From positions 1 to 41,745 of the IMG/VR virus record IMGVR_UViG_3300046003_006714: a stretch of 41,745 nt of DNA. One strand, 5' to 3'. A program made the position numbers and the translations under genes. This document shows, piece after piece, positions 12,177 through 34,699 of the stretch (the first letter of the stretch is position 1; each line of letters opens with the position of its first letter). The notes below the pieces were generated by a model that searched no databases, was not told the origin of the DNA, and was given only the letters and a program-made list of their open reading frames with translations. The DNA comes from a virus.

Positions 12177-12178
12177 CC

Positions 12179-13535: not shown

Positions 13536-13539
13536 TTTC

Positions 13540-13615: not shown

Positions 13616-13675
13616 CTTCCCCGTCACGGCAAGGGCTCCCGCCGCCAGCCACGGCTCACCACCAACGAGGTTCAC

Positions 13676-13966
13676 ATGGCCTGTTCGAAGCGTTCCCTCC
13701 TGATGTCGCTCTGCTTGGGCGTCGCCGCCGCATTCACCGCCACCTGGCGCACCGTGAGCGATGCCGCCCACCAGGTTCATGCCCTGTACTGCCGAGCGGC
13801 CGACTGGGTGATCGAGCGCGTGGCCACCGCCGCCGGCAAGGCCCAGCCCATGGAAGCGCCCCGCGCCGCCGTGCTGCTGGTCCAGGCCAAGGCCTTCGTG
13901 CTGCGCCTGGCCAAGCGAGAGACCCCCCGCGTGATGCCGGGCTGGCGGATGTGTCCATCGACCTGA
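13676..13966 (+). CDS. Small membrane-anchored hypothetical protein (96 aa)
   Basis: An N-terminal hydrophobic helix (about residues 7-22) after Met-Ala-Cys-Ser-Lys-Arg suggests an anchor or uncleaved signal; the remainder is helical and basic. A GAGG ribosome site lies about seven bases before the ATG. The gene stands alone between the tRNA and a strong terminator, so it could be made in the lysogen or early in the late phase. No family is recognised. Confidence 0.6.
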   Translation: MACSKRSLLMSLCLGVAAAFTATWRTVSDAAHQVHALYCRAADWVIERVATAAGKAQPMEAPRAAVLLVQAKAFVLRLAKRETPRVMPGWRMCPST

Positions 13967-13985
13967 TCACGCTGTCACGCACTGG

Positions 13986-14009
13986 AAGGGCCCCCCACGG
14001 GGCCCTTTT
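13986..14009 (+). terminator. Strong intrinsic terminator
   Basis: AAGGGCCCC / GGGGCCCTT, nine-base arms, four-base loop, then TT. Follows the gene at 13676-13966. Confidence 0.85.
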
Positions 14010-14258
14010 CCATTGGGCCCACTCGGACCCAGCGGAAAAGGATCTCTCCAGAAAACCAGCAGCAAACGCCGCCCACCACCCGGCCGTCACATGCCCGCCA
14101 GGGCTGGCCATCTTGGGCGGCGTGCTCCGGCATAGCGGAACCCTGCCGGCGACCAAGAGCCGCAGCCCATCACGTAGAACAGCGCAGCCACCTCCAACCA
14201 GGCAATGCGGGCGGGGATGGGCACCCAAGATCACGTTGCCATTGGCCGCAAGGCCTTC

Positions 14259-14286
14259 AACCCCCGGTGACCACCCGGGTTTTTTC
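14259..14286 (+). terminator. Intrinsic terminator before the late genes
   Basis: AACCC / GGGTT stem with an inner three-pair helix and small internal loop, followed by six T residues. Ends only 14 bases before the next ATG, so it separates or modulates late gene expression. Confidence 0.65.
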
Positions 14287-14299
14287 CAAGGATCCAGCG

Positions 14300-14503
14300 A
14301 TGACCAAGTCCGTTCGCATTGAGAACGCCGACACCAGCTCCTACAAGGTGGTGGTGAAGGTCGAGGTGAAGAACGCTGCCGGCGAGTGGGTGCCCGCCGA
14401 TCCCGCCATCGGCCAGGACCAGCGCCTGGATTACCCGACCCAGATGCTCACCGCCGGCATCCACAGCCATCGCCGCCTGGTGATCGAGGAAGCCCCGGAG
14501 TAA
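14300..14503 (+). CDS. Small beta-rich hypothetical protein (67 aa)
   Basis: AAGGA lies about nine bases before the ATG at 14300 (an upstream ATG at 14267 is inside the terminator). The product is a compact series of strands (Ser-Val-Arg-Ile-Glu-Asn, Val-Val-Val-Lys-Val-Glu-Val) and ends acidic. A small beta-sandwich protein is likely; function is unknown. First gene of the late block. Confidence 0.65.
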   Translation: MTKSVRIENADTSSYKVVVKVEVKNAAGEWVPADPAIGQDQRLDYPTQMLTAGIHSHRRLVIEEAPE

Positions 14504-14505
14504 CC

Positions 14506-14712
14506 ATGCTCCTGCTTCCGCACCAGCAGCGCGTCGTCGAAGAGCACGCCGAGCTCGCCGACCGCCTCCAGAAGCTCACCGCCTTCCTGGACACGCCCAC
14601 GTTCGATGCGCTGCCCAAGGACGAGCGCCACCGCATGGTCCAGCAGCGCATGCTCATGAGCCTTCTGGCCATGACATTGAAGGCGCGCATCGACGCGTTC
14701 GAGGAACTGTGA
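14506..14712 (+). CDS. Small helical phage protein, crAss001_48-like
   Basis: Residues 6-66 show the pattern of a family common in phages: Gln-Arg-Val-Val-Glu-Glu, Glu-Leu-Ala-Asp-Arg-Leu-Gln-Lys-Leu-Thr-Ala-Phe-Leu, then Gln-Gln-Arg-Met and a final Arg-Ile-Asp-Ala-Phe. The family, known as crAss001_48-related, has no known role. Start is two bases after the previous stop. Its TGA overlaps the GTG start of the small terminase. Confidence 0.65.
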   Translation: MLLLPHQQRVVEEHAELADRLQKLTAFLDTPTFDALPKDERHRMVQQRMLMSLLAMTLKARIDAFEEL

Positions 14713-15500
14713 AACCGGCCAAAAAGCCCGCCGTTGCACAAAAAGTAGGCAGAACCGGCGGCCACAAGGCAAAAGTCCAGGAGCTCGCAGCACCAGGACC
14801 CGAAGAATCGGCGCTGACGCCAAAGCAAGCCGCCTTCGTCGCTGAGTACCTGATCGACCTCAACGCGACACAGGCTGCGATCCGGGCCGGTTACAGCGCC
14901 AAGACCGCGCCGGAACAGGCCAGCCGGCTGTTAGCGAATGTCAAGGTAGCAGCCGAGCTCCAGAAAGCCATCGCGGCGCGCGCCGAGCGCACCGACATCA
15001 GTGCTGACCGTGTGGTGAAGGAAGCCTGGTCGATCCTGACCGCGGACCCGCGCGAGTTCATGGAGTACCGCATCGGCTGCTGCCGCTACTGCTGGGGCAA
15101 GGACCACCGCTACCAGCGCACCGCCGCCGAGTTCGAGAGCGCGGAGACTGCCTACGCGACATATTGCGAGGCACAGATCGATGCTGGCAAACCCATCGCT
15201 GGCGAGTTCGATCCGAAGGGCGGCATCGGCTTCAACGCGACGCGTGCGCCGAACCCTGAATGCCCGGAGTGCTTCGGCGAAGGCACCGGCCGCACGGTGT
15301 TCAAGGACACCAGCAAGGTCAGCAAGGCGGCTGCCAGCCTGTTCGCTGGCGTGAAGGAAACCAAGGAAGGGCTGGAGATCCGGTTGCACAGCAAGGACGC
15401 CGCCATGGACAAGATGTTCCGGCACCTCGGTCTGTACAACGACAAGATCGAGCTCACCATGCCTAAGGTCCGCATCAAGGACTTCACTGGCAAGAGCTGA
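14709..15500 (+). CDS. terS: Terminase small subunit
   Basis: Residues 36-95 match the Terminase_2 type: Leu-Thr-Pro-Lys-Gln-Ala-Ala-Phe-Val-Ala-Glu-Tyr-Leu, Asn-Ala-Thr-Gln-Ala-Ala-Ile-Arg-Ala-Gly-Tyr-Ser, and Ala-Ser-Arg-Leu-Leu-Ala-Asn, a helix-turn-helix that binds the packaging site. It starts with GTG overlapping the previous stop. The middle (about residues 122-200) contains two Cys-x2-Cys pairs (Cys-Arg-Tyr-Cys and Cys-Pro-Glu-Cys) and could bind zinc, making the protein, at 263 residues, longer than the usual 150-180. Confidence 0.9.
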   Translation: MKPAKKPAVAQKVGRTGGHKAKVQELAAPGPEESALTPKQAAFVAEYLIDLNATQAAIRAGYSAKTAPEQASRLLANVKVAAELQKAIAARAERTDISADRVVKEAWSILTADPREFMEYRIGCCRYCWGKDHRYQRTAAEFESAETAYATYCEAQIDAGKPIAGEFDPKGGIGFNATRAPNPECPECFGEGTGRTVFKDTSKVSKAAASLFAGVKETKEGLEIRLHSKDAAMDKMFRHLGLYNDKIELTMPKVRIKDFTGKS

Positions 15501-15607
15501 GATGCTGCAAAAGTTCTCAGCGCACCGCTGCCAGGTGCCGAAAATCGCGGGCCGAGACCATCGGCGCGCTGGTGCATGTAGCTCGATGGTTCTCAAAGCG
15601 GCTCGAA

Positions 15608-17095
15608 ATGGCTGAAATCGAGTTCGCCTACAAGCCGCAGGGCCCCACGGTTGAGCAGTACATCCTCAGCCGGTCGCAGCGAACCATCATCACGGGCCCG
15701 CTGGGCTCATCGAAAACCAACGGGAGCTGCTGGAAGTCGTTCCGCGTGATGATCGAGCAGGAGCCCGATTCCGACGGCGTGCGGCGCACGCGCGGCCTGG
15801 CGGTGCGCAACACCTACCCGGACCTCTTCAGCACCACGATCAAGGACTGGCTGGAGATGTTCGGGGATCTCGGCAAGTTCCACAAAGGTGGACTGGAGCC
15901 GCCCACGCACCGCCTGAAGTTCAAGCTCGACGACGGCACCACGGTGGATGCCGAGATGGTGTTCCTGGCCCTGGACCGCCCCGATCACGTGAAGAAGCTG
16001 CGCGGCCTGCAGCTCACCTTCGCCTGGCTCAACGAGGTCAAGGAACTGCTGTTCACCATCCTGGAGATGGTCGACCTCCGCATCGGCCGCTTCCCGCAGA
16101 ACCCGACCTGGTACGGCATGTTCGGCGACACCAACGCGCCGGACACAGACCACTGGCTCTACCGCCTGGCCGAAGAGCTGCATCCCGAGGGCTGGACCTT
16201 CCTCAAGCAGCCCGGTGGCCTGATCCGCAGGTCCCCCGACGCGCCGTGGGAGCTCAACCCGCTGGCCGAGAACCTGAACAACCTGCCCGATGGCTACTAC
16301 GTCAAGGGCGCCCAGGGCAAGACCGAGAGCTGGATCAAGGTCAACCTGGCCAACGAATACGGGTTCGTGGCCGACGGCAAGCCGGTGTGGCCCGACTACC
16401 GCGACAGCGTGCACTGCAAGTCCTTCGATCTCATCAAGGGCCTGCCGGTGCACATCGGTCTGGACTTCGGTCTCACCCCGGCCGCCATCTTCGGCCAACG
16501 CACTCTCATCGGGCAGTGGCGCTGGCGTCACGAGCTGGTGACCACCGACACCGGCGTGATCCGCTTTGCCAACGAGCTGAAGAAGTTCATCCAGGAGAAC
16601 CTGGCCGGCTACAAGATCGGCCGCATCACCGGTGACCCATCGGGCGACCAGCGCCAGGTCGGCGACAAGGACGAGCGCACGGTGTTCCAGCTCCTGGAAG
16701 CCAACGGCATCACGGCCGAACCAGCGCACACCAACGACTTTGCTATCCGGTCCGAAGCGGTTGCCAACCCGCTGCGTCGAATGATCGACGGCGAGCCCGG
16801 CTTCCTGCTGCACCCCGACCTCAAGGTCACCCGCAAGGGAATGCAGGGCGCCTACAAGTTCCGCCGCATGCAGGTGGCGGGCGAGGAGCGCTACCGCGAT
16901 GTGCCGGAGAAGAACGCGCAATCCCACCCCTGCGAGGCTGGCCAGTACCTGATGCTGGGCGGTGGCGAGGGTGTGGCAGCGATTGAGACGCACAGCGAAG
17001 AGAAAGCCGCCGACGCCGAGGCCTACCGGGCACAGCGTGGCCTGGCCACCTCAGACGACGCCAAGGCGTTTCGCCGCAACAGAGGCAGACGATGA
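15608..17095 (+). CDS. terL: Terminase large subunit
   Basis: ATPase and nuclease that packages DNA through the portal. Walker A is Gly30-Pro-Leu-Gly-Ser-Ser-Lys-Thr37; Walker B lies around residue 130 (Leu-Thr-Phe-Ala-Trp-Leu-Asn-Glu), and the nuclease half starts near Gly-Leu-Asp-Phe-Gly-Leu-Thr-Pro with Gly-Asp-Pro-Ser-Gly-Asp later. 495 residues from ATG 15608; a GTG at 15572 would add 12 residues, neither has a strong ribosome site, and Met-Ala-Glu-Ile-Glu looks like the natural start. The frame ends in an ATGA overlap with the portal gene. 15501-15607 holds no gene. Confidence 0.9.
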   Translation: MAEIEFAYKPQGPTVEQYILSRSQRTIITGPLGSSKTNGSCWKSFRVMIEQEPDSDGVRRTRGLAVRNTYPDLFSTTIKDWLEMFGDLGKFHKGGLEPPTHRLKFKLDDGTTVDAEMVFLALDRPDHVKKLRGLQLTFAWLNEVKELLFTILEMVDLRIGRFPQNPTWYGMFGDTNAPDTDHWLYRLAEELHPEGWTFLKQPGGLIRRSPDAPWELNPLAENLNNLPDGYYVKGAQGKTESWIKVNLANEYGFVADGKPVWPDYRDSVHCKSFDLIKGLPVHIGLDFGLTPAAIFGQRTLIGQWRWRHELVTTDTGVIRFANELKKFIQENLAGYKIGRITGDPSGDQRQVGDKDERTVFQLLEANGITAEPAHTNDFAIRSEAVANPLRRMIDGEPGFLLHPDLKVTRKGMQGAYKFRRMQVAGEERYRDVPEKNAQSHPCEAGQYLMLGGGEGVAAIETHSEEKAADAEAYRAQRGLATSDDAKAFRRNRGRR

Positions 17096-19239
17096 TCATC
17101 AAACCGACACCGCAATACGATGACCGCGCCGGGGATCTGTCCCGCGATCACGCCGGCGCCGGTGCGTTCAGCATCTACGCCCTGGAGCGGATGCTGCGCG
17201 ACTGCATGGAACAGCCGGACTGGCGCCTGCGCGCTGCGGTGTGCGCCGCCTACTACGACGGCAAGCAGTTGAGCGAGCTGCAGCGCTGGCACATCCGCGA
17301 GGCGGATCTGGAGGAGCGCGCCGTCAACCTGATCCGGCCCGTGATCAACAGTGTGCTCGGCCAGGAAGCCCGCAGCCGCACCGACGTGAAGATCGAAGCC
17401 GACGACGACGCCGACTCCGATGTTGCCGAGGTCATGAGCTACCGCCTGAAAGAACTCGAGCGCGAGTCCAGCGCGCACATGGCGGTGAGTGAGGCCTACG
17501 CATCCATGGTGAAGAAAGGTCTGGGCTGGGTCTACGTGGGCCGCAACAGCGACCCGCTTGACTACCCCTACCGTGCGGAGAGCGTGCCCATCGACGAGAT
17601 CTGGTGGGACTGGCGCGGCCAGCGCGGCGTCACCCTCAAGGAAGGTTGCCGCTGGCTGGTGCGCCAGCGCATGGTCGACCTCGACGAGCTCGAAGCCGGC
17701 ATGCCCGAGCACGCCGCTGTCTTGCGCATGTGCGTCAACGGCTGGGAGAACTTCCTGGATGACGACGGCAACATCCTGGGCAAGCCGGAGACCCCCGCGC
17801 TGGAGCAGGCCTACGCGAACGAGAGCCGCTTCAACCTCACGGTGAAGAAGTGGGACTGGGTGGATGCCGCCCGCAAGATGCTCAAGCTCTATGAGGTCTG
17901 GTACCGCGTGCCCGCCCAGGTGGTGGTGCTGCACATGAGCCCGACGCGGCGCGTGCAGTACGACCCCAACGACCGCCGCCATGTCGAGGCAGTGTCGCGT
18001 GGCCTGGTGAAGATCAGCAAGGGCATCACGTCCCAGGTGCGCCGCGCGCTGTACGCCGGCCCGCACCGCCTCTACGACGAGGCCACCAAGAAGCGCAACT
18101 TCCCCTACATCCCGTTCTTCGCCTTCCGCGACGACGAGGACAAGAGCCCGTATGGCCTGATCGATGGCATGGTGGCGCCACAGGACGAGTACAACGAACG
18201 CCGCCTGCGCATCCAGTGGATGCTCAAGGCCCGCCAGGTGCAGATGGACAGCGACGCGCTGGATCCGAAGTACAACTCGATCGCCGACGTCGAGCAGAAC
18301 GCGATGCGCCCCGACTTCATGGCCATCACCAACCCGAACCGGATCAACCGCAACAACGTCGCCATCAAGATCGCCAACGACCTGGCCATGCAGCCGGAGC
18401 AGTTCACGGTGATGGCCGACAGCAAGCAGCTCATCCAGGACACGGCCGGCCGCTACGCCTCGCAGCTCGGCAACAAGCCCGCCGGTGTCACCTCCGGCAT
18501 CGCCAACAGCCTGCTGATCGAGCAGGGCGAGCAGTCCATGGGCGAGATGAACGACAACTACAGCACGGCCCGTCGCTCCGTGTTCGAGCAGGCCGTGGAC
18601 GAGATCATTGCCGACCACCGCGAGCAGAACCTGGCCGTGCCCATCGGCGCCGGCAAGACGCGCCGAGTGGTCGTGCTCAATCAGTGGAGCCCCGAGGGCA
18701 AGCCGGTCAACAGCGTGGCAGACGCCCACATCAAGACCGCGCTGGCTGAGGTGCCGAACACGCCGGCGTACCGCCAGCAGAGCCAGCAGCAGGTCGCCCA
18801 GATCATCCAGGCCCTGGGCAACAACCCGCAGGCCGTGGCTGTCCTGGCACCTGCCTACGTGGAGAGCACGTCGCTCAACAACCGCCAGCAGGTCGCCGAC
18901 GATCTGCGCCGCGTCTCTGGCCTGCCGATGCCCGGCGACAAAGAAGGCCAGGCGCAAGCCGAAGCCCAGCAGACCGCGATGCAGGCCGAGCAGCAGCAGC
19001 ATGCGCGTGCGCTCGCCCAGGCCACGCTGGACGAGAAGGTGGCCAGCGCCGAGCGGCACCGCGCCACTGCCCGTAAGGCAACCGCCGATGCCCAGTTGGT
19101 CGAGGGCCGCATCGTGGCTGGCCAGGTGCCTGCCGAGGTCGACAAGACCATCGCTGAGACCGCGCAAATCCTCGCACCGGAACCCGAGCCGGACGAAGAC
19201 CAGTTGATCGAGGACGCGCTGGCCGAAGCCAGCAACTGA
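17092..19239 (+). CDS. Portal protein, P22-like
   Basis: The 715-residue product fits the large P22-type portal family: Tyr-Tyr-Asp-Gly-Lys-Gln-Leu near residue 55, Arg-Pro-Val-Ile-Asn-Ser-Val-Leu-Gly at about 83, Asp-Glu-Ile-Trp-Trp-Asp-Trp near 168, Arg-Asn-Phe-Pro-Tyr-Ile-Pro-Phe-Phe-Ala-Phe at about 340 and a long Gln/Ala-rich helical C-terminus (from about 555) like the barrel of P22 gp1. Twelve copies form the DNA gate. Followed by a strong terminator. The opposite strand holds a similarly long open frame that is only a shadow. Confidence 0.92.
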   Translation: MIIKPTPQYDDRAGDLSRDHAGAGAFSIYALERMLRDCMEQPDWRLRAAVCAAYYDGKQLSELQRWHIREADLEERAVNLIRPVINSVLGQEARSRTDVKIEADDDADSDVAEVMSYRLKELERESSAHMAVSEAYASMVKKGLGWVYVGRNSDPLDYPYRAESVPIDEIWWDWRGQRGVTLKEGCRWLVRQRMVDLDELEAGMPEHAAVLRMCVNGWENFLDDDGNILGKPETPALEQAYANESRFNLTVKKWDWVDAARKMLKLYEVWYRVPAQVVVLHMSPTRRVQYDPNDRRHVEAVSRGLVKISKGITSQVRRALYAGPHRLYDEATKKRNFPYIPFFAFRDDEDKSPYGLIDGMVAPQDEYNERRLRIQWMLKARQVQMDSDALDPKYNSIADVEQNAMRPDFMAITNPNRINRNNVAIKIANDLAMQPEQFTVMADSKQLIQDTAGRYASQLGNKPAGVTSGIANSLLIEQGEQSMGEMNDNYSTARRSVFEQAVDEIIADHREQNLAVPIGAGKTRRVVVLNQWSPEGKPVNSVADAHIKTALAEVPNTPAYRQQSQQQVAQIIQALGNNPQAVAVLAPAYVESTSLNNRQQVADDLRRVSGLPMPGDKEGQAQAEAQQTAMQAEQQQHARALAQATLDEKVASAERHRATARKATADAQLVEGRIVAGQVPAEVDKTIAETAQILAPEPEPDEDQLIEDALAEASN

Positions 19240-20410: not shown

Positions 20411-21712
20411 ATGTCCACCACTTCCGTTCCGCGCGGCAACGCGCTGGCCAACAAGCAGTTCTCCAAGGCGCTGTCGGCCATGGCCGTGCGCCAGGCCACG
20501 CCGCTGGCTGCACTCACCGGGCCCATGCCCACCCACGACGCTGCGATGCGCAAGCTCAAGCAGCAGTCCACCACCGAGATGCCGGTGGTGCGAGTCGACG
20601 AGCTCTCCAAGGGCCCGGGCGACGTCGTGCAGCTCGACTGCGCACACGTCGTGAAGCTGCGCCCCGTCATGGGCGACCGCAACGCCGAAGGTATGGGCGC
20701 CGCGCTGAAGTACAGCACCAAGGACATCGTGCTCGACATGGCCACCATCCCGGTGTCCGCTGGCGGCAAGATGACCCAGCAGCGCACCCCGCACAGCATG
20801 CGCCTGAATGCGCTGGCCCAGTTGAAGCGCGGCATCCCCGCCTTCCGCTGGCAGCGTGCGCTGGCCATGCTGGCTGGCAGCCGCGGCAAGCAGGACGGCA
20901 CCGACTGGGTGCTGCCTCTGGCGACCGACCCCGACTTCGCCGAGATGATGGTGAACCCCATCAAGGCGCCGTCGTACAACCGTCACTTCGTGGTGAACGG
21001 CGTCAGCCTCACGCAGGGTGGTGCGCAGCTCGCATCGGTGGCTACCACCGACCGCATGCTGCTGTCGCACCTCGACGAGTTCTCGGCAATCTGGGATGAG
21101 ATGACCATCAAGATGGCGCCCATCCAGATCCCGGGCGACCCGGCCGCCGGCGATGACCCCATCAAGGGCATCCTGCTGGTGGACCCGCTGGTCTGGGACT
21201 CGATCGAGACCGACACCACGGCCAGCGGCAACCTGCGCAAGTACAAGGCCGACGCTATGGAGCGCGCCAAGTACGGCAGCCTGAGCAAGCATCCCTTGTT
21301 CAGCGGCTCGCCCATCCTGTGGAACGGTGTGCTGGTGCGCAAGATGCAGTACGCCATTCGCCACGATGCGGGCGACGTCGTGGCCCACGTCACGGCCGCA
21401 AACCGCCTGGCTGGCACCGAGACCAACGTGACGGTTGCCGCCGGCTTGAGCACCACCCACCAGATGGCTCGCTCGGTCTTCCTCGGCGCCCAGGCCCTCG
21501 GCATTGCATCTGGTGCGAACCAGACCAGTGAAGAGACCTACTCGCTGCTGGAGAACAAGACCAACTTCGGTCGCAACCTGGAGCTGGCCGGCGAAATCAT
21601 GGGCGTGGAAGACAAGCTGCGCTGGAGCCTGCCGAACGCCGATGGCGACCTCGAAGCCACCGACTTCGGCGTGGCCGTGATCGACAGCGTGGTGCGCAAG
21701 CGCAACGTGTGA
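20411..21712 (+). CDS. Major capsid protein, N4-gp56 family
   Basis: The 433-residue product has an N-terminal arm, and sequence features of the N4-gp56 group: Asp-Ala-Ala-Met-Arg-Lys-Leu, Lys-Tyr-Ser-Thr-Lys-Asp-Ile-Val-Leu-Asp, Thr-Pro-His-Ser-Met-Arg, Leu-Val-Asp-Pro-Leu-Val-Trp-Asp-Ser, and Phe-Leu-Gly-Ala-Gln-Ala-Leu-Gly-Ile-Ala-Ser-Gly, ending Phe-Gly-Val-Ala-Val-Ile-Asp-Ser-Val-Val. This is an HK97-fold shell protein. TAGGAG lies seven bases before ATG, and a terminator follows the stop, so it is set up for high expression. Confidence 0.9.
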   Translation: MSTTSVPRGNALANKQFSKALSAMAVRQATPLAALTGPMPTHDAAMRKLKQQSTTEMPVVRVDELSKGPGDVVQLDCAHVVKLRPVMGDRNAEGMGAALKYSTKDIVLDMATIPVSAGGKMTQQRTPHSMRLNALAQLKRGIPAFRWQRALAMLAGSRGKQDGTDWVLPLATDPDFAEMMVNPIKAPSYNRHFVVNGVSLTQGGAQLASVATTDRMLLSHLDEFSAIWDEMTIKMAPIQIPGDPAAGDDPIKGILLVDPLVWDSIETDTTASGNLRKYKADAMERAKYGSLSKHPLFSGSPILWNGVLVRKMQYAIRHDAGDVVAHVTAANRLAGTETNVTVAAGLSTTHQMARSVFLGAQALGIASGANQTSEETYSLLENKTNFGRNLELAGEIMGVEDKLRWSLPNADGDLEATDFGVAVIDSVVRKRNV

Positions 21713-24443: not shown

Positions 24444-24755
24444 ATGGATGCCATCTCCTACACGCGCCGCCTGGTGAAGGGCAGCGAACTGACCTACGCC
24501 GAGGGAGACGCAAACCTCGACGCCACGCAAACCGCACTTGAGCAGCTCGATGCAGAAAAGGTGAGCATCGAGGATGCCGTAGACGTCGAGACCGGCACGG
24601 GGGATGTCCTGCTCACCGACGTGGCGTTGGTGTTCAGGGCTGATGTGCCCCTGGAATACACCGTCGCCAAACTGCTTGAGCCGGCCACCGTTCGCCTGGA
24701 TGCGATCGATGTCCTTCTCGAAGACCTCGAAGCCGCGATCGAGGCCATCCTATGA
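24444..24755 (+). CDS. Hypothetical small protein (103 aa)
   Basis: Acidic, Ala/Leu/Glu-rich, with helices at 20-50 and 77-102. Tyr-Thr-Arg-Arg-Leu-Val-Lys-Gly-Ser-Glu-Leu-Thr-Tyr-Ala-Glu-Gly at the start resembles tail-fibre-attached sequences. It ends in an ATGA overlap with the fibronectin-III gene, so it is part of the same cassette. Confidence 0.6.
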   Translation: MDAISYTRRLVKGSELTYAEGDANLDATQTALEQLDAEKVSIEDAVDVETGTGDVLLTDVALVFRADVPLEYTVAKLLEPATVRLDAIDVLLEDLEAAIEAIL

Positions 24756-26116
24756 GCATCGCCAGCGTGCTCACGCGGCTTGAAGCTGCTCGCGTCGCCA
24801 TCATCGCGGCCATCGAGGACAAAGGTGGAGTGGTGCCGTCCAACACCGGTTTGGAGGCGCTGCCGGACTTCATTGCCGACATCAGTTCCGGCGGTGGCGC
24901 GTTCGTGCCGAGTGCGTTCGCTGTGGGCGACTGGACCGCGGCCGCGGCTGCAGGGCAAATCAATCTCAACATCACCGCGCTTCCAAGCGATGGTGGAACT
25001 CCGATCACCGCGCTGCAGTATCGGATCGATGGTGGGACTGCTGTCGGCCTCTCCGGCACAGGAACGGGCGCCAGGACGATCAGCGGGCTTGCGGCTGGCG
25101 TGGAATACGACGTGCAGATCCGCGCCGTCAATGCGCTTGGCGCCGGCGCGTGGAGCGACACGAAGTCCCGCACGACACCGGTTGTGCCGTCGGCTTTCAC
25201 GTCTGGCAACTGGACGGCCACCCCTGGCGATGGCGAGGTCGTGCTCAACATCACGGCTCTGCCTAGCAATGGTGGGACTGACATCACTGCGCTTCAGTAC
25301 CGCATCGACGGTGGTACCTGGACCAACCTCACCGGTACTGGCACCGGGTCGCGCACGATCACGGGTCTTACGAACGCGACGGAATACGACTTCGAACTGC
25401 GCGCGGTGAACGCTGTGGGCAACGGGGCAGCGAGCGACGTGAAGTCGGCCACCCCTGAAGCAGCAGTCAGTCCAAACCCTGTGCATGAAGGTCTCCAAGC
25501 GACGATTGGAACCCTCCATGTGCTCGGGGTTGGCATCACGGCGGCCAAGCCGGCTGGCACCGTTGCTTCCGACCTGCTGATTGCCATCCTTGAGGTTCGC
25601 GGCAACGACCGCGCCATTGTTTCTGCGACTGGATGGACGCCAATCGTGTCGGCATTCTCTGATCAAGGTACCGTCGGCGGGCTCATGGCTTACCGGGCGC
25701 CGGGTGACGTTGCAACCACTCAGTTTGTGTTGACCGAAGCTCGTGGGACGTGGAACTCTCGTGTTGTCATGCACAGGATCAGTGGAGCGAACGCTTCCAC
25801 CCCGATCCGGGCGTCTGCCGCTAGCCCAGAAACGTCCACCGCCGATGCAAATTGGCCGTCTCCAACCGTCACGATCGAGGAAGGCGACCTCGTTCTCTCG
25901 GACTTCTTCCAGCCACAGTCTCTCAACGCTGTTGGAACGCCTACAGCAGGCTTTACCAGGATCTATGAAGCCGATGCCGACGACGACACTGCTGAAGGTC
26001 GACGCAGCGTCTTGCTGCGGGAGGATGCGCCTGCAGGAGCGACGGGATCTATTTCTCACGCCGCCAGTTCTGCGTACACGGCTCGTGCAGCGCTCACGAT
26101 CGCGATCCGAGCATGA
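24752..26116 (+). CDS. Fibronectin-III repeat virion protein
   Basis: 454 residues with two tandem fibronectin type III domains at about 50-144 and 145-237: each has Gly-Asp/Asn-Trp-Thr-Ala, Ile-Thr-Ala-Leu-Gln-Tyr-Arg-Ile-Asp-Gly-Gly, Gly-Thr-Gly-Thr-Gly, and Glu-Tyr-Asp-x-x-x-Arg-Ala-Val-Asn-Ala. They are close copies, also in DNA, so a duplication. A beta-rich domain follows (240-454), containing Ile-Val-Ser-Ala-Phe-Ser-Asp-Gln and Gly-Trp-Thr-Pro-Ile-Val. Such domains on phage virions mediate binding to cell surfaces. Begins and ends in ATGA overlaps, linking it to the hydrolase cassette. Confidence 0.85.
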   Translation: MSIASVLTRLEAARVAIIAAIEDKGGVVPSNTGLEALPDFIADISSGGGAFVPSAFAVGDWTAAAAAGQINLNITALPSDGGTPITALQYRIDGGTAVGLSGTGTGARTISGLAAGVEYDVQIRAVNALGAGAWSDTKSRTTPVVPSAFTSGNWTATPGDGEVVLNITALPSNGGTDITALQYRIDGGTWTNLTGTGTGSRTITGLTNATEYDFELRAVNAVGNGAASDVKSATPEAAVSPNPVHEGLQATIGTLHVLGVGITAAKPAGTVASDLLIAILEVRGNDRAIVSATGWTPIVSAFSDQGTVGGLMAYRAPGDVATTQFVLTEARGTWNSRVVMHRISGANASTPIRASAASPETSTADANWPSPTVTIEEGDLVLSDFFQPQSLNAVGTPTAGFTRIYEADADDDTAEGRRSVLLREDAPAGATGSISHAASSAYTARAALTIAIRA

Positions 26117-27132
26117 CCCTCTACCGTTTTGCCGGAACCAATCGCGGACTGCTGCTTCTGGCAACAGGGCGGCGGAGAGTCACGTTTCCGCAAGGCGCAC
26201 CTCCACTCACGCCTGTCGCGTTCACCGCGCGCCTCGTGGTCACTGGCCACTCGATCCCGGACGCCCCTTTGCAGTGGCCTTGGGGCGGCGTGATCACGGA
26301 TGCTGGATTCACTCCGGACATGATCACCAGCACCGGCCCGTTTGGGTCGGCGGAGTCACGGTGGAATCTTGATCCGGCCGGCCTGGACAAGGTCAGGGAG
26401 TACCTGTCCGAGCCAGGTGCCAGTGCGGACCTCTTCCTCGGTACCGAGGCCTTCGGCGGCTCGTATGGAAGCCCCGGACGTGCCTCGGTTCACGGCCACA
26501 TCCAGTTCTCCGATGCCTACGGCTACGCGCTGTTGTGGCACAACCTGGCGGCATCAACCGGCGCTCAGACGTTCTACAGCAACTTCTGGCGCAACGACAT
26601 GGACGAGGTCTTCGGCTCAAGCTGGAGGAACTCGCACAACGTACCCGTCAGCGCGCCCTACAACCTCACAGAGGTGGAGCTGTGGAACAGCATCATTGAT
26701 CACGTCAATGCCAATCGTGCAGGGGGCACGCGGGAGATGCGCCTGGTTCCCTGGCTGGAGGTCATGCTGGCCATCTACGACGCGATCGAGGCGGGCACGC
26801 TCACCGGCATGGTGATGACGGACTTCTTCATCGACGACGTGCACCCCTCCAACCTCGGAACTTGGGTGCTGATGGCCGTGATGATGGCCGTGATGTACCA
26901 CCGCCATCCTGACGAGCTCAGCCACTCGATCAGCGATCAGTACGGCGGTGCGCCGTTCACCGTCAATTCTGGCTACGCAGCCCAACTCCGACCCCTCATC
27001 TGGGCCACCTGTGTGGCAACACCTCGCACTGGGATGGAGGGTTTCGCTGACGGCGGTGTTGATCCGCAGGCGCTGATGGTCGACGGACACCCTTTGATGG
27101 TCGACGGTTTCCCACTTCGAATCGGAGCTTGA
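26113..27132 (+). CDS. SGNH-hydrolase-like protein
   Basis: The 339-residue product carries the main blocks of an SGNH/GDSL-type hydrolase: Gly45-His-Ser47 after a beta strand (Leu-Val-Val-Thr), and Asp241-Asp-Val-His244-Pro-Ser-Asn near the end of the fold, giving a Ser47/Asp241/His244 triad. Oxyanion residues between are likely Gly and Asn in the Glu-Ala-Phe-Gly-Gly and Tyr-Ser-Asn segments, but this is less certain. Members deacetylate or hydrolyse esters on polysaccharides. It is directly upstream of DUF1800 and DUF1501 genes. The C-terminus repeats Leu-Met-Val-Asp-Gly, an odd small duplication. No signal peptide, so virion-borne rather than exported is suggested. Confidence 0.7.
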   Translation: MTLYRFAGTNRGLLLLATGRRRVTFPQGAPPLTPVAFTARLVVTGHSIPDAPLQWPWGGVITDAGFTPDMITSTGPFGSAESRWNLDPAGLDKVREYLSEPGASADLFLGTEAFGGSYGSPGRASVHGHIQFSDAYGYALLWHNLAASTGAQTFYSNFWRNDMDEVFGSSWRNSHNVPVSAPYNLTEVELWNSIIDHVNANRAGGTREMRLVPWLEVMLAIYDAIEAGTLTGMVMTDFFIDDVHPSNLGTWVLMAVMMAVMYHRHPDELSHSISDQYGGAPFTVNSGYAAQLRPLIWATCVATPRTGMEGFADGGVDPQALMVDGHPLMVDGFPLRIGA

Positions 27133-27133
27133 A

Positions 27134-27490
27134 ATGCCCACGCTTATTGACGACGCCACCCCAACTCCAGCGCACCGTGCTTCGATCGATGCTGCCCTTC
27201 ATCCCAGCGTTCGAATCACGGGCAACACCACCCTGGCTTACCCAACTGTCGTGGGCATCCCGTACGAGGTCGAATCAGCATCTGCTGTGGTGGTGACGCT
27301 ACCCAGCGGCTCCGGCATTCGTTCCGGCACCGTCATCAATGGCCACAACATCGGCGCTGGCCTGTTGTCGTTCGCTGCAAGTGGCGGCGAGTCCATTGTC
27401 GGCAATGCCGAGCTTCCAAGCACCGTTGCGCAATACGACCCCTTCGAACTGCGCCGCATCAATGGCAACCGCTGGTTGCGCATCGCATGA
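27134..27490 (+). CDS. Small beta-structured protein (118 aa)
   Basis: A beta-rich protein with the feel of a fibre or adhesin subunit: many short Val/Thr strands, Gly-Ile-Arg-Ser-Gly-Thr-Val-Ile-Asn-Gly-His-Asn, and a final Arg-Trp-Leu-Arg-Ile. It lies one base after the SGNH gene and overlaps the DUF1800 start (ATGA), so it is part of the cassette. It may be the docking subunit for the enzymes. Function is not recognised. Confidence 0.55.
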   Translation: MPTLIDDATPTPAHRASIDAALHPSVRITGNTTLAYPTVVGIPYEVESASAVVVTLPSGSGIRSGTVINGHNIGAGLLSFAASGGESIVGNAELPSTVAQYDPFELRRINGNRWLRIA

Positions 27491-29223
27491 GTGCCGCCGC
27501 CCGTGCTGTGCGCCGCAAGCGCAAGCCAATGACCATCAACGATGCATCGCGCTTCCTGCGCCGCTCAACCCTGGGCGTTCGCTACGAGCAGATGAGTGCC
27601 GTGGTCGGCACGCGCTTTGCGGACTGGGTTGATGCGCAACTTGATCTATCGGTCGTGCCCAACCAGGCGCTGACCACGGTCAGGACGCGGCGCCTTCCTG
27701 GATTCGCGTCAGGCCCCGTGCTGGACCAGTTCTGGCCAGCCAATTACCAGTACCTGAACTGGAAGTTCTACCAGCCGGAAATTCTGCGCACGCGCCTCAC
27801 CTACGCGGTGATGGAGCTGTTCTCGATGGGAAACATCGATGTGACCGTGGGCAACCACGCGATGATTTGGGACATCATCGAATCGGAAGTTACCCAGGGC
27901 AACTTTCGCTCCCTCATCGAGAAGATCACGCGCAGCATCCCGATGAGCCGCTGGCTCACGTACTGGCGCAACGCCAAAACGGATGGCGTGCGCCAGCCGG
28001 ACGAGAACTACGGCCGCGAGATCATGCAGCTCTACACCATCGGGTTGTGGGAGCTGCATCTGAACGGCACCCGCATGAAGACGGGCGAGCTCAGCCCCTC
28101 GGATCCACGCTACGTGTTGGGTGGCACGGAAGACGTGCCCACCTACGGCCAGTCGGACGTGGCCAACATGGCGCGTGTGTTCACGGGCTTGACTGCCCGC
28201 GAGACCTCCGACAATGGCGCCTCGATGAACACGGCTGATCAGTCGTTTCTTGGAATTCCGAGTGGGGATGCTGGCAACCTCGGTTACATCGACGCTGACG
28301 GCAATCGCGGCTGGGCAGCCCGGCTTGTCTTCGCGCCGAGCTACCACGAGAGCACACTTCCGAAACAGGCCCTGTACGGACGCATCGACATTCCTGCAGG
28401 AACCAACGGCGACACGTCGCTGAGCATCGCGCTTGATGCTCTTGTCGATCATCCAAGCTGCGCACCCTACCTTGCCGGTCGATTCATTCGACTGCTGACT
28501 TCCAGCAACCCGAGTCCTGAATACGTTGCTCGTGTGGCTTCCGTGTTTCGAGACGACGGCACCGGGGCGACGGGAAACCTGCGCGCATTCTTCCGAGCCA
28601 TTCTTCTGGACCAGGAGGTCATGGCGCCGGTTGAGAAACGCTTGTCAAGCCGCGTGCCTTCGTTTGAAGAGCAGCGCCTTGCGCTGGTGCTCGCCCACCC
28701 CCCAGGTTTCACCACGGAGGGCGCCATTGGTGCCGGGGGCACGGGGTTTGATGGGCCACCAGGCAGTCAGACCCTGACCGCGGAACTGATCGGCATGGGC
28801 TTCTACAGCCCTCTGCAGATTTTCCAGAACCCGTCCGTGTTTGGCAGGTGGCCAGCAGCCTACAGCGCTGGCGGTGCGATCTTCAATGCCGGCTTGAAAA
28901 GCCCAGAACTGGCCACGCTGACCGAAGGCTCCGTGACAGATCTGATCGACACGTCGAACACGCTGTATCAACGCATCGGGAATCTGGCACCTGCCCAGGA
29001 TCTCGCGGACTGCCACAGCGTCACCGGAAACCGTGTGGCCCTGGTGGACAGGTTGGCTTTTCTGATCACCGGCGGGTCTGCGCCTCAGTCGCTGAAGGAC
29101 TCGATCCTCACTGCGCTGGCTGCGCGTGGCGCCTTCTTCGACACGGTGCCCAGGCGCTCGGAGACCTACTACAACATCGCCGCCGTGTTGTGGCTATCCC
29201 CTTGGGGTATTTCCCGGAACTAG
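27487..29223 (+). CDS. DUF1800 family protein
   Basis: All DUF1800 landmarks are visible in 578 residues: Asp-Ala-Ser-Arg-Phe-Leu-Arg-Arg-Ser-Thr-Leu-Gly near residues 19-30, Leu-Arg-Thr-Arg-Leu-Thr-Tyr-Ala around 99, Asp-Glu-Asn-Tyr-Gly-Arg-Glu-Ile-Met-Gln-Leu-Tyr-Thr-Ile-Gly at about 176-190, Asp-Val-Ala-Asn-Met-Ala-Arg-Val-Phe-Thr-Gly, the segment Arg-Phe-Ile-Arg-Leu-Leu, and Pro-Ser-Val-Phe-Gly-Arg-Trp-Pro near 460. The family is usually bacterial and next to DUF1501; its reaction is unknown. Here there is no N-terminal signal, unlike most bacterial members that are exported. It is coupled on both sides and has normal length. Confidence 0.9.
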   Translation: MSAAARAVRRKRKPMTINDASRFLRRSTLGVRYEQMSAVVGTRFADWVDAQLDLSVVPNQALTTVRTRRLPGFASGPVLDQFWPANYQYLNWKFYQPEILRTRLTYAVMELFSMGNIDVTVGNHAMIWDIIESEVTQGNFRSLIEKITRSIPMSRWLTYWRNAKTDGVRQPDENYGREIMQLYTIGLWELHLNGTRMKTGELSPSDPRYVLGGTEDVPTYGQSDVANMARVFTGLTARETSDNGASMNTADQSFLGIPSGDAGNLGYIDADGNRGWAARLVFAPSYHESTLPKQALYGRIDIPAGTNGDTSLSIALDALVDHPSCAPYLAGRFIRLLTSSNPSPEYVARVASVFRDDGTGATGNLRAFFRAILLDQEVMAPVEKRLSSRVPSFEEQRLALVLAHPPGFTTEGAIGAGGTGFDGPPGSQTLTAELIGMGFYSPLQIFQNPSVFGRWPAAYSAGGAIFNAGLKSPELATLTEGSVTDLIDTSNTLYQRIGNLAPAQDLADCHSVTGNRVALVDRLAFLITGGSAPQSLKDSILTALAARGAFFDTVPRRSETYYNIAAVLWLSPWGISRN

Positions 29224-29225
29224 AC

Positions 29226-30533
29226 ATGCCACAACCATCCGACTTTGTTGCTGCGCAAGCAGCCATGGCCACCGCTGCTGCTGCAGGAGGGGGGACGAAT
29301 CGACGCAACCTGATCGCCATCTTCCTCGGGGGTGGAAGTTGCGCGCACAACACCATCATCCCCAGGACGGGCGCCAACCGCACGTACTACGAAAGCGTGC
29401 GACCAGGCCTCGCCATTGCCAACAACTCGGCCACCGCGCTCGACGCCGACTGGCAACTTCACCCATCACTCACCGGGCTCAAGACCTTGTGGGATGCCGG
29501 CAGGCTGGCCATCGTGCGCAACATCGGGCCTCTGGTCTATCCCATCACGCGCGCCCAGTTTCTGGCGCAGGCCGTACAGGTTCCCGCCCAGCTCCATTCC
29601 CACTCGGACCAGCAGGACGTGTGGGAGACAGGAATCGGCAATCAGCCGGTAGCGGCCACCGGTTGGCTCGGGCGACTTGGAGAGTTGCTGACCCCGTTCA
29701 ACACAGGCACCGAAGTGTCACCGTTGATCAGCATGGCTGGCCCAACCGACACCTTCCGCGCCTTTGACATCCGATCTCTTGGCCTGGGCCCCAATGGCTT
29801 TGGCCTGAGGAATGGCGGGTTTCGCCTTGACGGCAACTTCCTGAACATCGCCGAGGATCTCTTCCAAGAGGTCGAGGCCGATGACCTTCTCGTGCAGGAA
29901 TACCTCGACACCCACAAGCGTGCAGTGATCGCTGGCAGCATCATCAACGCGGCTCGTGATGCTGCTGCCATCCCCACCAACATCCCGAACACAAGCCCGC
30001 TCGGGAACAACATGCGCTTCGTCATGCGCCTGGCGTCGCAACAGGCGACGCTGGCACAGCGCCGAACACTCTTTTTCATGGCGCACGGAGGCTATGACCA
30101 CCACGCCGACCAGTTGACTCTCGAAACGGGACGCTTCACTGAGCTGGATCCGGTGCTGCTCCAGGCCTACAACGCCTCGGTGAACTACGGAATCGCGGCC
30201 AACACCACCTTCGTGGTGTACAGCGAGTTTGGGCGAAGCCTGCGACAGAACGGATCCGGCTCAGACCATGGATGGGGCGGCCATGCGTTCGTGTTCGGCG
30301 GTGCAGTCCAAGGGGGCTGGTACGGCAACCCCTACTCGCTGAACCCGGCGGGCCCGGACATCGTGCGCGAACAGTGCCACATGATCCCGACGACACCCGT
30401 GGACTCGCTTATCGCGTCGCTGGCCAAGTGGATGGGGGTGCCTGATGCGGTGAGCGGCGGGGTGAACCCACTGAACCTGCTGGTGCCGAACCTGCCCAAC
30501 TTCCCCGTTCGGGATCTTGGGTTGTTCACATAG
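29226..30533 (+). CDS. DUF1501 family protein (alkaline phosphatase/sulfatase superfamily)
   Basis: Landmarks in 435 residues: Leu-His-Pro-Ser-Leu near 77, Gly-Arg-Leu-Ala-Ile-Val-Arg-Asn-Ile-Gly, Ser-His-Ser-Asp-Gln-Gln-Asp-Val-Trp-Glu-Thr-Gly, His287-Gly-Gly-Tyr-Asp-His-His293, Ser333-Glu-Phe-Gly-Arg and Asp347-His-Gly. These are the DUF1501 metal-binding positions (usually Gly-Gly-Trp-Asp-Thr-His). Bacterial members carry a twin-arginine signal and are exported; this one instead has an Ala-rich 25-residue N-terminus without twin arginines or hydrophobic core. Starts two bases after the DUF1800 stop. Likely a metal-dependent sulfate or phosphate ester hydrolase; substrate unknown. Confidence 0.9.
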   Translation: MPQPSDFVAAQAAMATAAAAGGGTNRRNLIAIFLGGGSCAHNTIIPRTGANRTYYESVRPGLAIANNSATALDADWQLHPSLTGLKTLWDAGRLAIVRNIGPLVYPITRAQFLAQAVQVPAQLHSHSDQQDVWETGIGNQPVAATGWLGRLGELLTPFNTGTEVSPLISMAGPTDTFRAFDIRSLGLGPNGFGLRNGGFRLDGNFLNIAEDLFQEVEADDLLVQEYLDTHKRAVIAGSIINAARDAAAIPTNIPNTSPLGNNMRFVMRLASQQATLAQRRTLFFMAHGGYDHHADQLTLETGRFTELDPVLLQAYNASVNYGIAANTTFVVYSEFGRSLRQNGSGSDHGWGGHAFVFGGAVQGGWYGNPYSLNPAGPDIVREQCHMIPTTPVDSLIASLAKWMGVPDAVSGGVNPLNLLVPNLPNFPVRDLGLFT

Positions 30534-30547: not shown

Positions 30548-30952
30548 ATGAGCTACTACGTCGCAGGCTACATCCAGTCCGGCTACTTCGAGGGGGAGGA
30601 GACGGAGGCGGACGTTGTCACGCCGGCAGACAGCGCCTCGCCGGCGACGGTCTCGTCGAGCAATGCGGTGCAGACCTTCCGTGCCAACGCGGAGGGAGCC
30701 GTCGGCGGGGCGACCGTCACGTCCACGGTAGCGACGGCCGGTCATGGGGGATTCGTACAGCCGGCCGACTCGGACTCCGGCAGTTCCGTGACGGCGTCGA
30801 GTGCAACGCAAACGCTTCCAGCTTCGCCCGCGAGTTGTTTTGCTGGAGCGCTGGTCACCCAGTCCCGCGCGCTGGTATTGAACCGCGAAATCACCTATCC
30901 CGTGGCGGTCTATCCCGACACGTTGCAAAGCGCCGAATACCAAGGGCAGTGA
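30548..30952 (+). CDS. Hypothetical low-complexity virion protein (134 aa)
   Basis: GGAG lies about six bases before the ATG. The first 15 residues (Ser-Tyr-Tyr-Val-Ala-Gly-Tyr-Ile-Gln-Ser-Gly-Tyr-Phe) are aromatic; the middle is a low-complexity Ala/Ser/Thr/Val stretch (30-95). Likely an extended tail or fibre-linking protein. Not assigned. Confidence 0.55.
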   Translation: MSYYVAGYIQSGYFEGEETEADVVTPADSASPATVSSSNAVQTFRANAEGAVGGATVTSTVATAGHGGFVQPADSDSGSSVTASSATQTLPASPASCFAGALVTQSRALVLNREITYPVAVYPDTLQSAEYQGQ

Positions 30953-30959: not shown

Positions 30960-31256
30960 ATGGCAATCCTTCAAACCTTCGAAATGCAGCCCGGCGAGGT
31001 CAAGGGCTGGTCGATCTCCTTTGCCAAGTATCTGGCCCGCACCGGGGACAGTGCACGACCGACAACCCCGATCGAATATTTGGTGCCCGAGGGGATCACG
31101 CTGGTCGCAGCGATGTGGGTCGACGAAGGCGGCTATCTCAAATTCTTCGTGTCCAGCCCGCTCAAGGCCAAGACCTACAAGCTGACGTTCTGGCTGAACA
31201 CCACGGGTGGCGAGCGACTCGAGGCCGACGTCAAGGTCAAGGTCAAGGACTACTGA
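30960..31256 (+). CDS. Fibre-tail adaptor-like protein (98 aa)
   Basis: The product is a small beta-sandwich with Gly-Trp-Ser-Ile-Ser-Phe-Ala-Lys-Tyr-Leu-Ala near the N-terminus, Gly-Ile-Thr-Leu-Val-Ala, Ala-Lys-Thr-Tyr-Lys-Leu-Thr-Phe-Trp-Leu-Asn-Thr-Thr-Gly-Gly-Glu-Arg and a final Val-Lys-Val-Lys. This order resembles phage fibre-tail adaptor proteins (Gp77-like) that sit in front of the fibre or lysis genes. Pattern-based, moderate confidence. Confidence 0.6.
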   Translation: MAILQTFEMQPGEVKGWSISFAKYLARTGDSARPTTPIEYLVPEGITLVAAMWVDEGGYLKFFVSSPLKAKTYKLTFWLNTTGGERLEADVKVKVKDY

Positions 31257-32050: not shown

Positions 32051-32695
32051 ATGGTTGAACTCACCGTCGAGACCCTGCAGCGCGCCACCGGATCCACCCA
32101 GGAGAACGCCGAAAAGTACCTGCCTTTCCTCAAAGGCACGTGCAAGGCTTACGAGATCACCACGCCGCGCCGCGTGACCGGGTTTCTCTCGCAAATCGGT
32201 GTGGAGTCGGAGAACCTGGCCACCATCGAAGAGAACCTGAACTACTCGGTGGAGTCGCTGCTGACGAAATTCGGCCGCCACCGCATCAGCGAGTCCGACT
32301 GCCACCTGTACGGGCGCAAGCCTGGCCAGCCGGCCAACCGCCAGATGATCGCCAACCTGCTCTACGGCGGCCCTTGGGGCTTGAAGGAGCTCGGCAACAA
32401 GAACCCGGGCGATGGCTGGAGATACCGTGGGCGCGGCTTGAAGCAGCTCACCGGCCTGGACAACTATGCGCGCTGCGGCCACGCCCTGCGCGAGGACTTC
32501 GTGGGCCAGCCCGAGCGCCTGCTGATGCCGGTCAACGCTGCGCTGTCCGCTGGCTGGTTCTGGGCATCGAAGAACCTCAACGCGCTGGCCGACAAGGGCG
32601 ACATCCGGGCGCTGACGAAGGAGGTCAACGGCGGCTACACGGCTCTGGACCGTCGCATTGCACTCTGGCACACCGGCCTGGAGGTCTTCGCATGA
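32051..32695 (+). CDS. Endolysin, GH19 chitinase-like
   Basis: The 214-residue product matches GH19-type phage endolysins: Phe-Leu-Ser-Gln-Ile-Gly-Val-Glu52-Ser-Glu at the catalytic helix, Glu61, Ala-Asn-Leu-Leu-Tyr-Gly-Gly, Gly-Asp-Gly-Trp-Arg-Tyr-Arg-Gly-Arg-Gly-Leu-Lys-Gln-Leu-Thr-Gly and Asn-Ala-Ala-Leu-Ser-Ala-Gly-Trp-Phe-Trp. It cuts peptidoglycan sugar chains. No secretion signal, so holin-dependent. ATG 32051 is preferred over 32045 (which gives an ATGA overlap) because AGGAGG is only one base before 32045 but seven before 32051. Confidence 0.9.
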   Translation: MVELTVETLQRATGSTQENAEKYLPFLKGTCKAYEITTPRRVTGFLSQIGVESENLATIEENLNYSVESLLTKFGRHRISESDCHLYGRKPGQPANRQMIANLLYGGPWGLKELGNKNPGDGWRYRGRGLKQLTGLDNYARCGHALREDFVGQPERLLMPVNAALSAGWFWASKNLNALADKGDIRALTKEVNGGYTALDRRIALWHTGLEVFA

Positions 32696-33246: not shown

Positions 33247-33710
33247 CCGAGATCTTCGCCTTCTTCCAAGCCCTGGACCTGTCGTGGCTGTGGTCCATCG
33301 TGCAGGTGCTGCAGTCGCTGGGCATCTTCTGGCCCACGGTCTGGAACGGCCTGAAATTTGCCTTCTACCTGTGGTGCTTCTGGGTTCTGTTCGTTGCCGC
33401 CATGGGTGTTTACCGCGTGCACCGCGATGGCGGGCTCAAGAAGGCCACCACCTCAGTGTTTCACCGGGGGCTGGCCATGTCGCTGGTGGCTGTCGCTGTC
33501 ACAGTCGATTTCATCAGCCAGTACACCGTGGCGCCAATCGCCTTCTGGGACTGGCCGAAAAAGGGCGAGCACCTCGTCACCGACCGCCTGCAGCGCTACA
33601 TCAAGACCAACATCAGCCCCAAGCGCGTGGCCTTCGCCAAGTGGCTTTGCCACCTGCTGGACCCGTATGACCCCCGGGGCTACCACTGCATTCGACGGAG
33701 CCTGCCATGA
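33243..33710 (+). CDS. Membrane protein after the spanins (155 aa)
   Basis: At least two hydrophobic segments (about residues 15-35 and 38-58), a third near 75-95, rich in Trp, Phe and Tyr, then a Lys/Arg tail. Linked by ATGA to Rz and to the collar protein. It is not a standard holin but lies in the lysis block; a role in membrane disruption, timing or superinfection is possible. Confidence 0.65.
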   Translation: MTEIFAFFQALDLSWLWSIVQVLQSLGIFWPTVWNGLKFAFYLWCFWVLFVAAMGVYRVHRDGGLKKATTSVFHRGLAMSLVAVAVTVDFISQYTVAPIAFWDWPKKGEHLVTDRLQRYIKTNISPKRVAFAKWLCHLLDPYDPRGYHCIRRSLP

Positions 33711-34699
33711 GCCAAAGATTCTCCAACAACGCGCGCTCGCGCCTGGTCGGTGCGCTGAACAACTCGGCCACCACCTTCACGATCGAGTCGGCCACCGCCG
33801 ACACCTTCCCGGTGGCCAACACCACGAACTGGGTTACGCCTCTGAACTGGTTCAAGGCGACGATCCAGAACAGTCTCGGCCAGGTGGAGATCGTGCGGGT
33901 GGGCACGCGCGGGCTTGGCAGCGGGATCTTCGGCAACGTGCTGCGCGGCCAGGACGGCACCACCGCAATTGCCTTCGATGCAGGCGCCGTGGTGGGCTTG
34001 CGGGTGACGGCCGAGGACATCGAGGCCGCATTGGCGCTGCTGGAGGAAAACAACACATTCAGCGGCGACAACAACTTCAGCGGCGACAACACCCACAGTG
34101 GACAAAGCGACTTCACTGGTGAGATGCGGCAGAACGGCGCACAGGTGCGCACGGTTCCCGTGGGCGGCATCATCATGTACGACGGCTTGATCGCCGACAT
34201 CCCTGCCGGATGGCAGCTCTGCGATGGCACCAACGGCACGCCGGACATGCGGAACCGGTTTGTGATTGGCGCCATGGTTGATGCATCGGGCGAAGCCCAA
34301 ACCACGATCACTGGCGCTCCGACGAAGACGGGAGGGTCAAAGGATGCGATCGTTGTTGCGCACGCACACGGCGTGAACATCACGTCCGGCAACATGAGTG
34401 CAGACCACACCCACTCCGGTGCAACGGCGTCTGCTGGCGTCCATGCCCACTCGGTGCAGTACGCATCGGGCTCGAACACTGGTAGCTCGTATCCGTCACG
34501 GCTCTCTGAATCGGGCCTGACGAATGTCCCCACGGCCGCTGATGGTGCGCACTCCCACAGTTTCACCACCGGTGGATCTTCCGCCAATCACAGCCACCCT
34601 GTGATCGGAAACACGGCATCGACTGGAGCGTCTGGCACCAACGCCAATCTGGTGCCGTACTACGCGCTTGCTTACATCAAGTGCATGCCATACGTATGA
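33707..34699 (+). CDS. Tail fibre / collar protein with His-x-His motifs
   Basis: 330 residues. The N-terminal part (1-140) is beta-rich with a short repeat (Phe-Ser-Gly-Asp-Asn, residues about 117-135), followed by Val-Gly-Gly-Ile-Ile-Met-Tyr-Asp-Gly and Gly-Trp-Gln-Leu-Cys-Asp-Gly-Thr-Asn-Gly (about 150-175), the phage collar signature. The C-terminal half has five His-x-His pairs (His-Ala-His, His-Thr-His, His-Ala-His, His-Ser-His, His-Ser-His), as in phage fibre tips that bind metal ions, for example T4 gp37. A receptor-binding or baseplate-collar role is expected. ATGA overlaps on both sides. Confidence 0.85.
   Translation: MSQRFSNNARSRLVGALNNSATTFTIESATADTFPVANTTNWVTPLNWFKATIQNSLGQVEIVRVGTRGLGSGIFGNVLRGQDGTTAIAFDAGAVVGLRVTAEDIEAALALLEENNTFSGDNNFSGDNTHSGQSDFTGEMRQNGAQVRTVPVGGIIMYDGLIADIPAGWQLCDGTNGTPDMRNRFVIGAMVDASGEAQTTITGAPTKTGGSKDAIVVAHAHGVNITSGNMSADHTHSGATASAGVHAHSVQYASGSNTGSSYPSRLSESGLTNVPTAADGAHSHSFTTGGSSANHSHPVIGNTASTGASGTNANLVPYYALAYIKCMPYV

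Follow-up and report, generated by a model that had tools for sequence, protein, structure and literature searches.

We report that IMG/VR virus record IMGVR_UViG_3300046003_006714, analyzed over its full length of 41,745 nt (the window), carries on its (+) strand a mobile unit of three genes (positions 27134–30533) encoding a small beta protein, a DUF1800 protein, and a DUF1501 protein, and that this cassette, on balance, probably forms an appendage of the virion tail that recognizes or modifies the host surface. Both families are identified far above curated thresholds, the export leaders of their bacterial counterparts are absent, and the genes recur in other phages, in several of them amid tail or baseplate genes. 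They are also inherited together under purifying selection, and the fold predicted for the DUF1501 product is that of enzymes whose substrates are sulfate, phosphate, or phosphoethanolamine esters.

Family identity and absence of export leaders

The DUF1800 protein (27487..29223, + strand; 578 amino acids [aa]) matches PF08811 with an E-value of 9.3e-48 and 163.8 bits against a curated cut-off of 26.1, and the DUF1501 protein (29226..30533, + strand; 435 aa) matches PF07394 with an E-value of 1.2e-21 and 77.8 bits against a cut-off of 27. Both assignments, which an earlier note on this DNA had made from the letters and translations alone, are therefore well founded. The Pfam match of the window DUF1800 covers positions 1–296 of 419, and its C-terminal third aligns to homologs by MAFFT. 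PHROG held no match for either protein, and sequence searches of the PDB returned no solved structure related to DUF1800 or DUF1501. In a tblastn search of 50,697 phage records, DUF1800 was not found and DUF1501 was found once, in MT837425, an unverified fecal contig with a bacterial look. A search of 50,697 phage records for relatives of proteins P0001 and P0002 likewise led nowhere. The literature searched nowhere describes the cassette or a DUF1800-DUF1501 pair in phages, and the sole phage paper to mention DUF1501 does so only for a 61-aa protein with a weak CDD hit.

In bacteria, a DUF1800-DUF1501 operon has been described beside chitin synthase in Dickeya/Pectobacterium, with a twin-arginine translocation (Tat) motif in DUF1501 (PMC5122149). 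Bacterial operons resemble the window in having both families in the same order and with the same tight spacing, at 24–33% identity. However, they lie on chromosomes or plasmids and bear lipobox and Tat leaders, whereas the phage copies lack leaders, are found within blocks of virion genes, and are accompanied by phage adaptors or carry N-terminal extensions.

The earlier note had seen no signal peptide on either product, and alignment to bacterial homologs bears this out: the lipobox of DUF1800 (compared with a plasmid set) and the Tat leader of DUF1501 are both missing in the window copies. Tat leaders were called by a script and then corrected by eye. Specifically, the script flagged 82 of 82 bacterial DUF1501 loci, among which L048 proved to be a false call, and its calls for the window and the phage copy L030 were removed because the residues lay upstream of the start codon or beside the first strand. 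After correction, a Tat leader was present in 81 of the 82 bacterial DUF1501s versus 1 of 20 phage copies (L033 only). Where the leader would be, most DUF1501 copies in the main phage clade have a short M-x(1-3)-P-x-x-[FYW] segment and then a run rich in Ala, and the window copy has a short N-terminal helix at this place (residues 5–20 of the model, predicted local distance difference test [pLDDT] of 85–92).

Recurrence and anchoring in other phages

The search for adjacent DUF1800-DUF1501 genes in virus genomes that the earlier note had proposed as a check was positive. We scanned 2.9 million viral contigs (IMG/VR) four times with bacterial-plus-viral and viral profiles, and the scans converged on one set of about 21 contigs other than the window that carry the genes. 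DUF1501 directly follows DUF1800 in every carrier (about 17 contigs) unless the contig ends there, as it does inside or beside the pair in four of them (L020, L023, L028, and L036). One profile detected a terminase in 9 of the 20 carrier records searched. By PHROG, the pair in L030 is preceded by a collagen-like tail fiber and followed by terminase, portal, major head, and tail genes; L034 has terminase, portal, and major head genes; L032 has major head and minor tail genes; and L045 and L038 have baseplate wedge and fiber or virion structural genes. In addition, L031, a podovirus, has connectors like those of the window together with an internal virion protein, and L027 has a collagen-like fiber upstream and portal and major head genes downstream. 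L021, to judge by a contig number that suggests the genome of an isolate, may be an inducible prophage.

The complete, siphovirus-like L030 contig (33.6 kb) has only the beta protein, DUF1800, and DUF1501 in common with the window (51, 55, and 69% identity, respectively), and the same three are all that the L032 contig shares with it. The DUF1800-DUF1501 pair has been transferred jointly among phages that are not otherwise related and has lost its export signals. Two DUF1800-DUF1501 pairs occur on a 322,512-base contig with a terminase (IMGVR_UViG_3300037882_003354). One (L037) is leaderless, has a beta adaptor, and lies near structural-like genes; the other (L033) is leader-bearing, of host type, 57% identical to an Aquabacterium copy, and located beside ribonucleotide-reductase-like and glutaredoxin-like genes.

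The beta protein (27134..27490, + strand; 118 aa), the adaptor of the cassette, is a stand-alone domain resembling the C terminus of a phage minor tail protein (phrog_8780, E-value 1.1e-7). In four other phage contigs, a homolog immediately precedes DUF1800, and a scan of the collection with a family profile returned these four carriers of the pair and no others, its reach being limited because the search patterns were derived from those same four sequences. The carriers with a separate adaptor are the window, L030, L031, and L037 (plus L032 for DUF1800), and another group has N-terminal extensions on DUF1800 in its place. The N terminus of the L045 DUF1800 matches a baseplate wedge-tail fiber connector, albeit weakly (phrog_677, E-value 2.2e-4), and in L046 (8534–11644) a phage DUF1800 is fused behind Cadherin_5/Big_9 and DUF4082 domains; a search in phages with the N-terminal peptide of L045 led nowhere. 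The pair is thus encoded in a tail block with an adaptor or a virion anchoring domain, and the alternation between the two is, we infer, what would be expected of a pair that is anchored by either of two means.

Phylogeny and selection

In the DUF1501 tree, 11 phage copies and a chromosomal copy from Aquariibacter albus (L048) group together with 96/82 support, and within this group the window and L030 pair at 100/100; L021, L027, L029, L032 with L042, and L033 lie elsewhere or are unresolved. The DUF1800 tree, built independently by quick search, places 14 phage copies and L048 together (SH-like approximate likelihood ratio test [SH-aLRT] of 94), with inner groups that match those of the DUF1501 tree. 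Between the window and L030, the proportion of synonymous differences (pS) is 0.94 for DUF1501, 0.93 for DUF1800, and 0.87 for the beta protein, versus proportions of nonsynonymous differences (pN) of 0.22, 0.34, and 0.37, respectively. All three cassette genes are under purifying selection, with synonymous sites saturated and the proteins held. The earlier note had raised a host-gene capture confined to this isolate as the finding that would speak against it; the window copy lies instead in a deep phage group, and recurrence, the phage clade, purifying selection, and the 69% identical DUF1501 of L030 exclude such an event.

On the A. albus chromosome, L048 (9806–12855) comprises a DUF1800 with a leader-like N terminus followed by a leaderless DUF1501 that belongs to the phage clade. 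We rejected a prophage at this locus, as the surroundings are ordinary chromosome; the arrangement may mean either that the genes passed from a phage to the host or that the partner exports DUF1501.

Predicted folds and the DUF1501 active site

AlphaFold2 models were built from viral alignments. The DUF1501 model (pLDDT, 80.7; predicted template modeling score [pTM], 0.86) matched sulfatases, MCR-1/EptC, and YejM by Foldseek (prob, 0.87–1.0; best E-value, 2.5e-5), so that the protein models as an alkaline-phosphatase-superfamily fold of the sulfatase/MCR-like kind. With this superfamily (type I sulfatases, MCR/EptA phosphoethanolamine transferases, and YejM/PbgA) it shares the predicted fold and the D-H-G residues D347-H348-G349. 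It differs in that sequence similarity is below detection, residue 39 is Cys, the CxPxR formylglycine motif of type I sulfatases is absent from the translated window protein, and the DUF1800 partner has no counterpart there.

A census of 17 viral and 81 bacterial DUF1501s (n = 98) found H126, D291, H293, F335, R337, N342, G345, D347, H348, W350, P388, and W402 to be invariant. Among the presumed metal ligands, assigned by motif, D291, H293, D347, and H348 are kept in the window, and D39 is replaced by Cys. Position 39 lies just past the first strand, a site at which the superfamily has a metal ligand. The view of the earlier note that key residues are retained therefore holds for His-Gly-Gly-Tyr-Asp-His-His (HGGYDHH) and Ser-Glu-Phe-Gly-Arg (SEFGR) but not for the conserved D39. 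With Cys at this position, catalysis by the window DUF1501 is uncertain, and the protein may be catalytically altered or a binder.

The DUF1800 model (pLDDT, 72.6; pTM, 0.81) is nearly all helical and had no match in a Foldseek search of PDB folds; neither observation gave any sign of enzymatic chemistry. A search of BFVD gave one significant match, to a phage DUF1800. A0A6J5M749, a "DUF1800 family protein" of an uncultured Caudovirales phage (UniProt/BFVD), is alike in fold and family (Foldseek E-value, 7e-20) but is known only as a database annotation.

Proposed role and alternatives

We propose that 27134–30533 is a mobile virion-appendage cassette. The beta protein, or the N-terminal extension of DUF1800 in other phages, would anchor the unit to the tail or fiber; DUF1800 would serve as a helical scaffold or partner; and DUF1501 would meet a phosphate-, sulfate-, or phosphoethanolamine-substituted polymer of the host surface during adsorption and modify or bind it. 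The proteins would thus be present in the virion as a complex, and the window DUF1501 might still catalyze. With the virion delivering the pair from outside, neither the Tat leader nor the lipoprotein leader seen in bacteria would still be required, and both could be lost. Tail-associated depolymerases and deacetylases (tailspikes) are similar in tail-gene location and in the surface polymer proposed as target, but they form one trimeric spike, whereas the cassette consists of two separate proteins plus an adaptor, and none of the three matched a tailspike in Pfam or PHROG.

More tentatively, the cassette may represent an undescribed class of modular host-range apparatus, in which a helical DUF1800 scaffold would display at the tail an enzyme of the sulfatase/phosphoethanolamine-transferase type; its three genes would be exchanged together among podo-, sipho-, and T4-like phages and would put a bacterial surface system to new use. 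If present in the virion, it would be a new tail enzyme module that differs from the single trimeric tailspike and can pass from one phage type to another, and it would offer a handle on the role of the widespread, uncharacterized bacterial DUF1800-DUF1501 pair, with the phage acting on a surface polymer of the same kind. Clear and cheap predictions follow from the loss of the leaders and from the two architectures, separate adaptor and fused anchor.

Several observations weigh against a role at the tail or as an enzyme. The Foldseek TM-scores of DUF1501 are modest (0.26–0.46), the literature searched gave no enzyme activity for any DUF1501, and residue 39 is Asp in 96 of the 98 DUF1501s, with Cys confined to the window and L030. 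Moreover, L029 and L021 do not lie within a clear structural block, the phrog_677 match is weak, recognized extensions are confined to L045 and L046, and several other N-terminal extensions of DUF1800 match nothing.

The rarity of Cys39 is the starting point for an explanation by binding rather than cutting, in which the DUF1501 of the window lineage is no longer catalytic (D39C) and the cassette works as a receptor-binding module that holds on to its former substrate. DUF1501 is nevertheless under strong purifying selection, and it may still have a ligand site, given that D291, H293, D347, and H348 are retained. However, Cys is itself able to ligate metals, the remaining invariant residues are kept, unlike those of a decaying enzyme, and other phage copies retain Asp39; we consider pure binding rather unlikely, though far from negligible.

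An appendage of the particle, the role that we favor, also has to be weighed against late non-structural enzymes, which would be made with the structural genes, act in the cytoplasm or on post-lysis debris, and never be packaged. Such enzymes would suit a leaderless pair whose genes adjoin the lysis genes in the window and whose presence in virions is putative. They are harder to reconcile with the export of the bacterial pair and with a fold class that would act on envelope or extracellular esters, and the baseplate-connector-like and Ig/cadherin fusions and the tail-protein-like adaptor point to the particle, which makes this explanation unlikely. Recent capture of a host gene pair without phage function, for which L033 on the 322-kb contig is a precedent (Tat leader kept, 57% identity to an Aquabacterium copy), is highly improbable for the window copy, as it is contradicted by both trees and by the comparison with L030, an unrelated phage whose DUF1501 is 69% identical (pS 0.94 versus pN 0.22).

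Limits of the unit

The earlier note had described a four-gene set starting at 26113 with an SGNH-like protein (26113..27132, + strand; 339 aa). This protein is absent from 20 of 20 other carrier records searched, and viral relatives were looked for and none found; we therefore rejected it as a member of the set. The unit common to the phages thus starts at 27134 and comprises the beta adaptor, DUF1800, and DUF1501 (27134–30533), the SGNH-like protein being a window-specific neighbor. No Pfam, PHROG, or NCBIfam model matched it, and its label derives solely from the motifs GHSI (candidate block I Ser) and DDVHP (candidate block V Asp/His; DDVHPS in full), which are common to its relatives. These relatives lie in Paracoccus plasmids (L140, from 2752 onward; L141, 2348–3304) and, together with the window protein, possibly constitute an unrecognized SGNH-type family. 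One Paracoccus relative is a domain at the N terminus of a GH16 glycosidase that also carries RTX repeats.

Structural block of the window

Pfam and PHROG matches identify the late half of the window as a podovirus structural block, in which the pair sits between the connectors and the lysis genes, as the earlier note had placed it. Upstream lie a terminase, a portal protein that marks the block (17092..19239, +; phrog_156, 5.8e-108), a major head protein (20411..21712, +; phrog_334, 9.8e-73), and another two virion structural proteins. The stretch from the connectors to the lysis genes contains, in order, a fibronectin-III (FN3) repeat, minor tail-like protein (24752..26116, +; PF00041, 3.5e-11; phrog_6977/23968 minor tail), the SGNH-like protein, the small beta protein, DUF1800, and DUF1501. 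The joins read in the sequence have the tight spacing that the note had reported: ATGA overlaps at 26113–26116 and 27487–27490, and gaps of 1 base at 27133 and 2 bases at 29224–29225.

Directly downstream of the pair is an open reading frame for a 134-aa protein (30548..30952, +) with no family match in Pfam or PHROG. It is followed by a Gp77-like podophage fiber-tail adaptor (30960..31256, +; PF23148, 7.2e-5, below the curated cut-off), a holin-like protein, an endolysin of the glycoside hydrolase family 19 (GH19) type (32051..32695, +; phrog_181, 6e-73; PF00182, 2.9e-4), a tail (collar) fiber (33707..34699, +; phrog_8469 tail fiber, 4e-35), and an internal virion protein.

The window portal is closest to the portals of Achromobacter phage CF418P1 and Shiga toxin (Stx) phages, at about 33–37% identity. 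In the CF418P1 record (L040), an 8-kb gene at 8822–16876 is labeled "putative portal," and the portal homolog lies elsewhere in the record, so misannotation is likely. A tRNA-Ile (GAT) lies mid-phage at 13540–13615 of the window, just upstream of the packaging genes, and a protein encoded at 2383–2919 on the (−) strand resembles, by eye, a helix-turn-helix repressor, which hints at a temperate phage.

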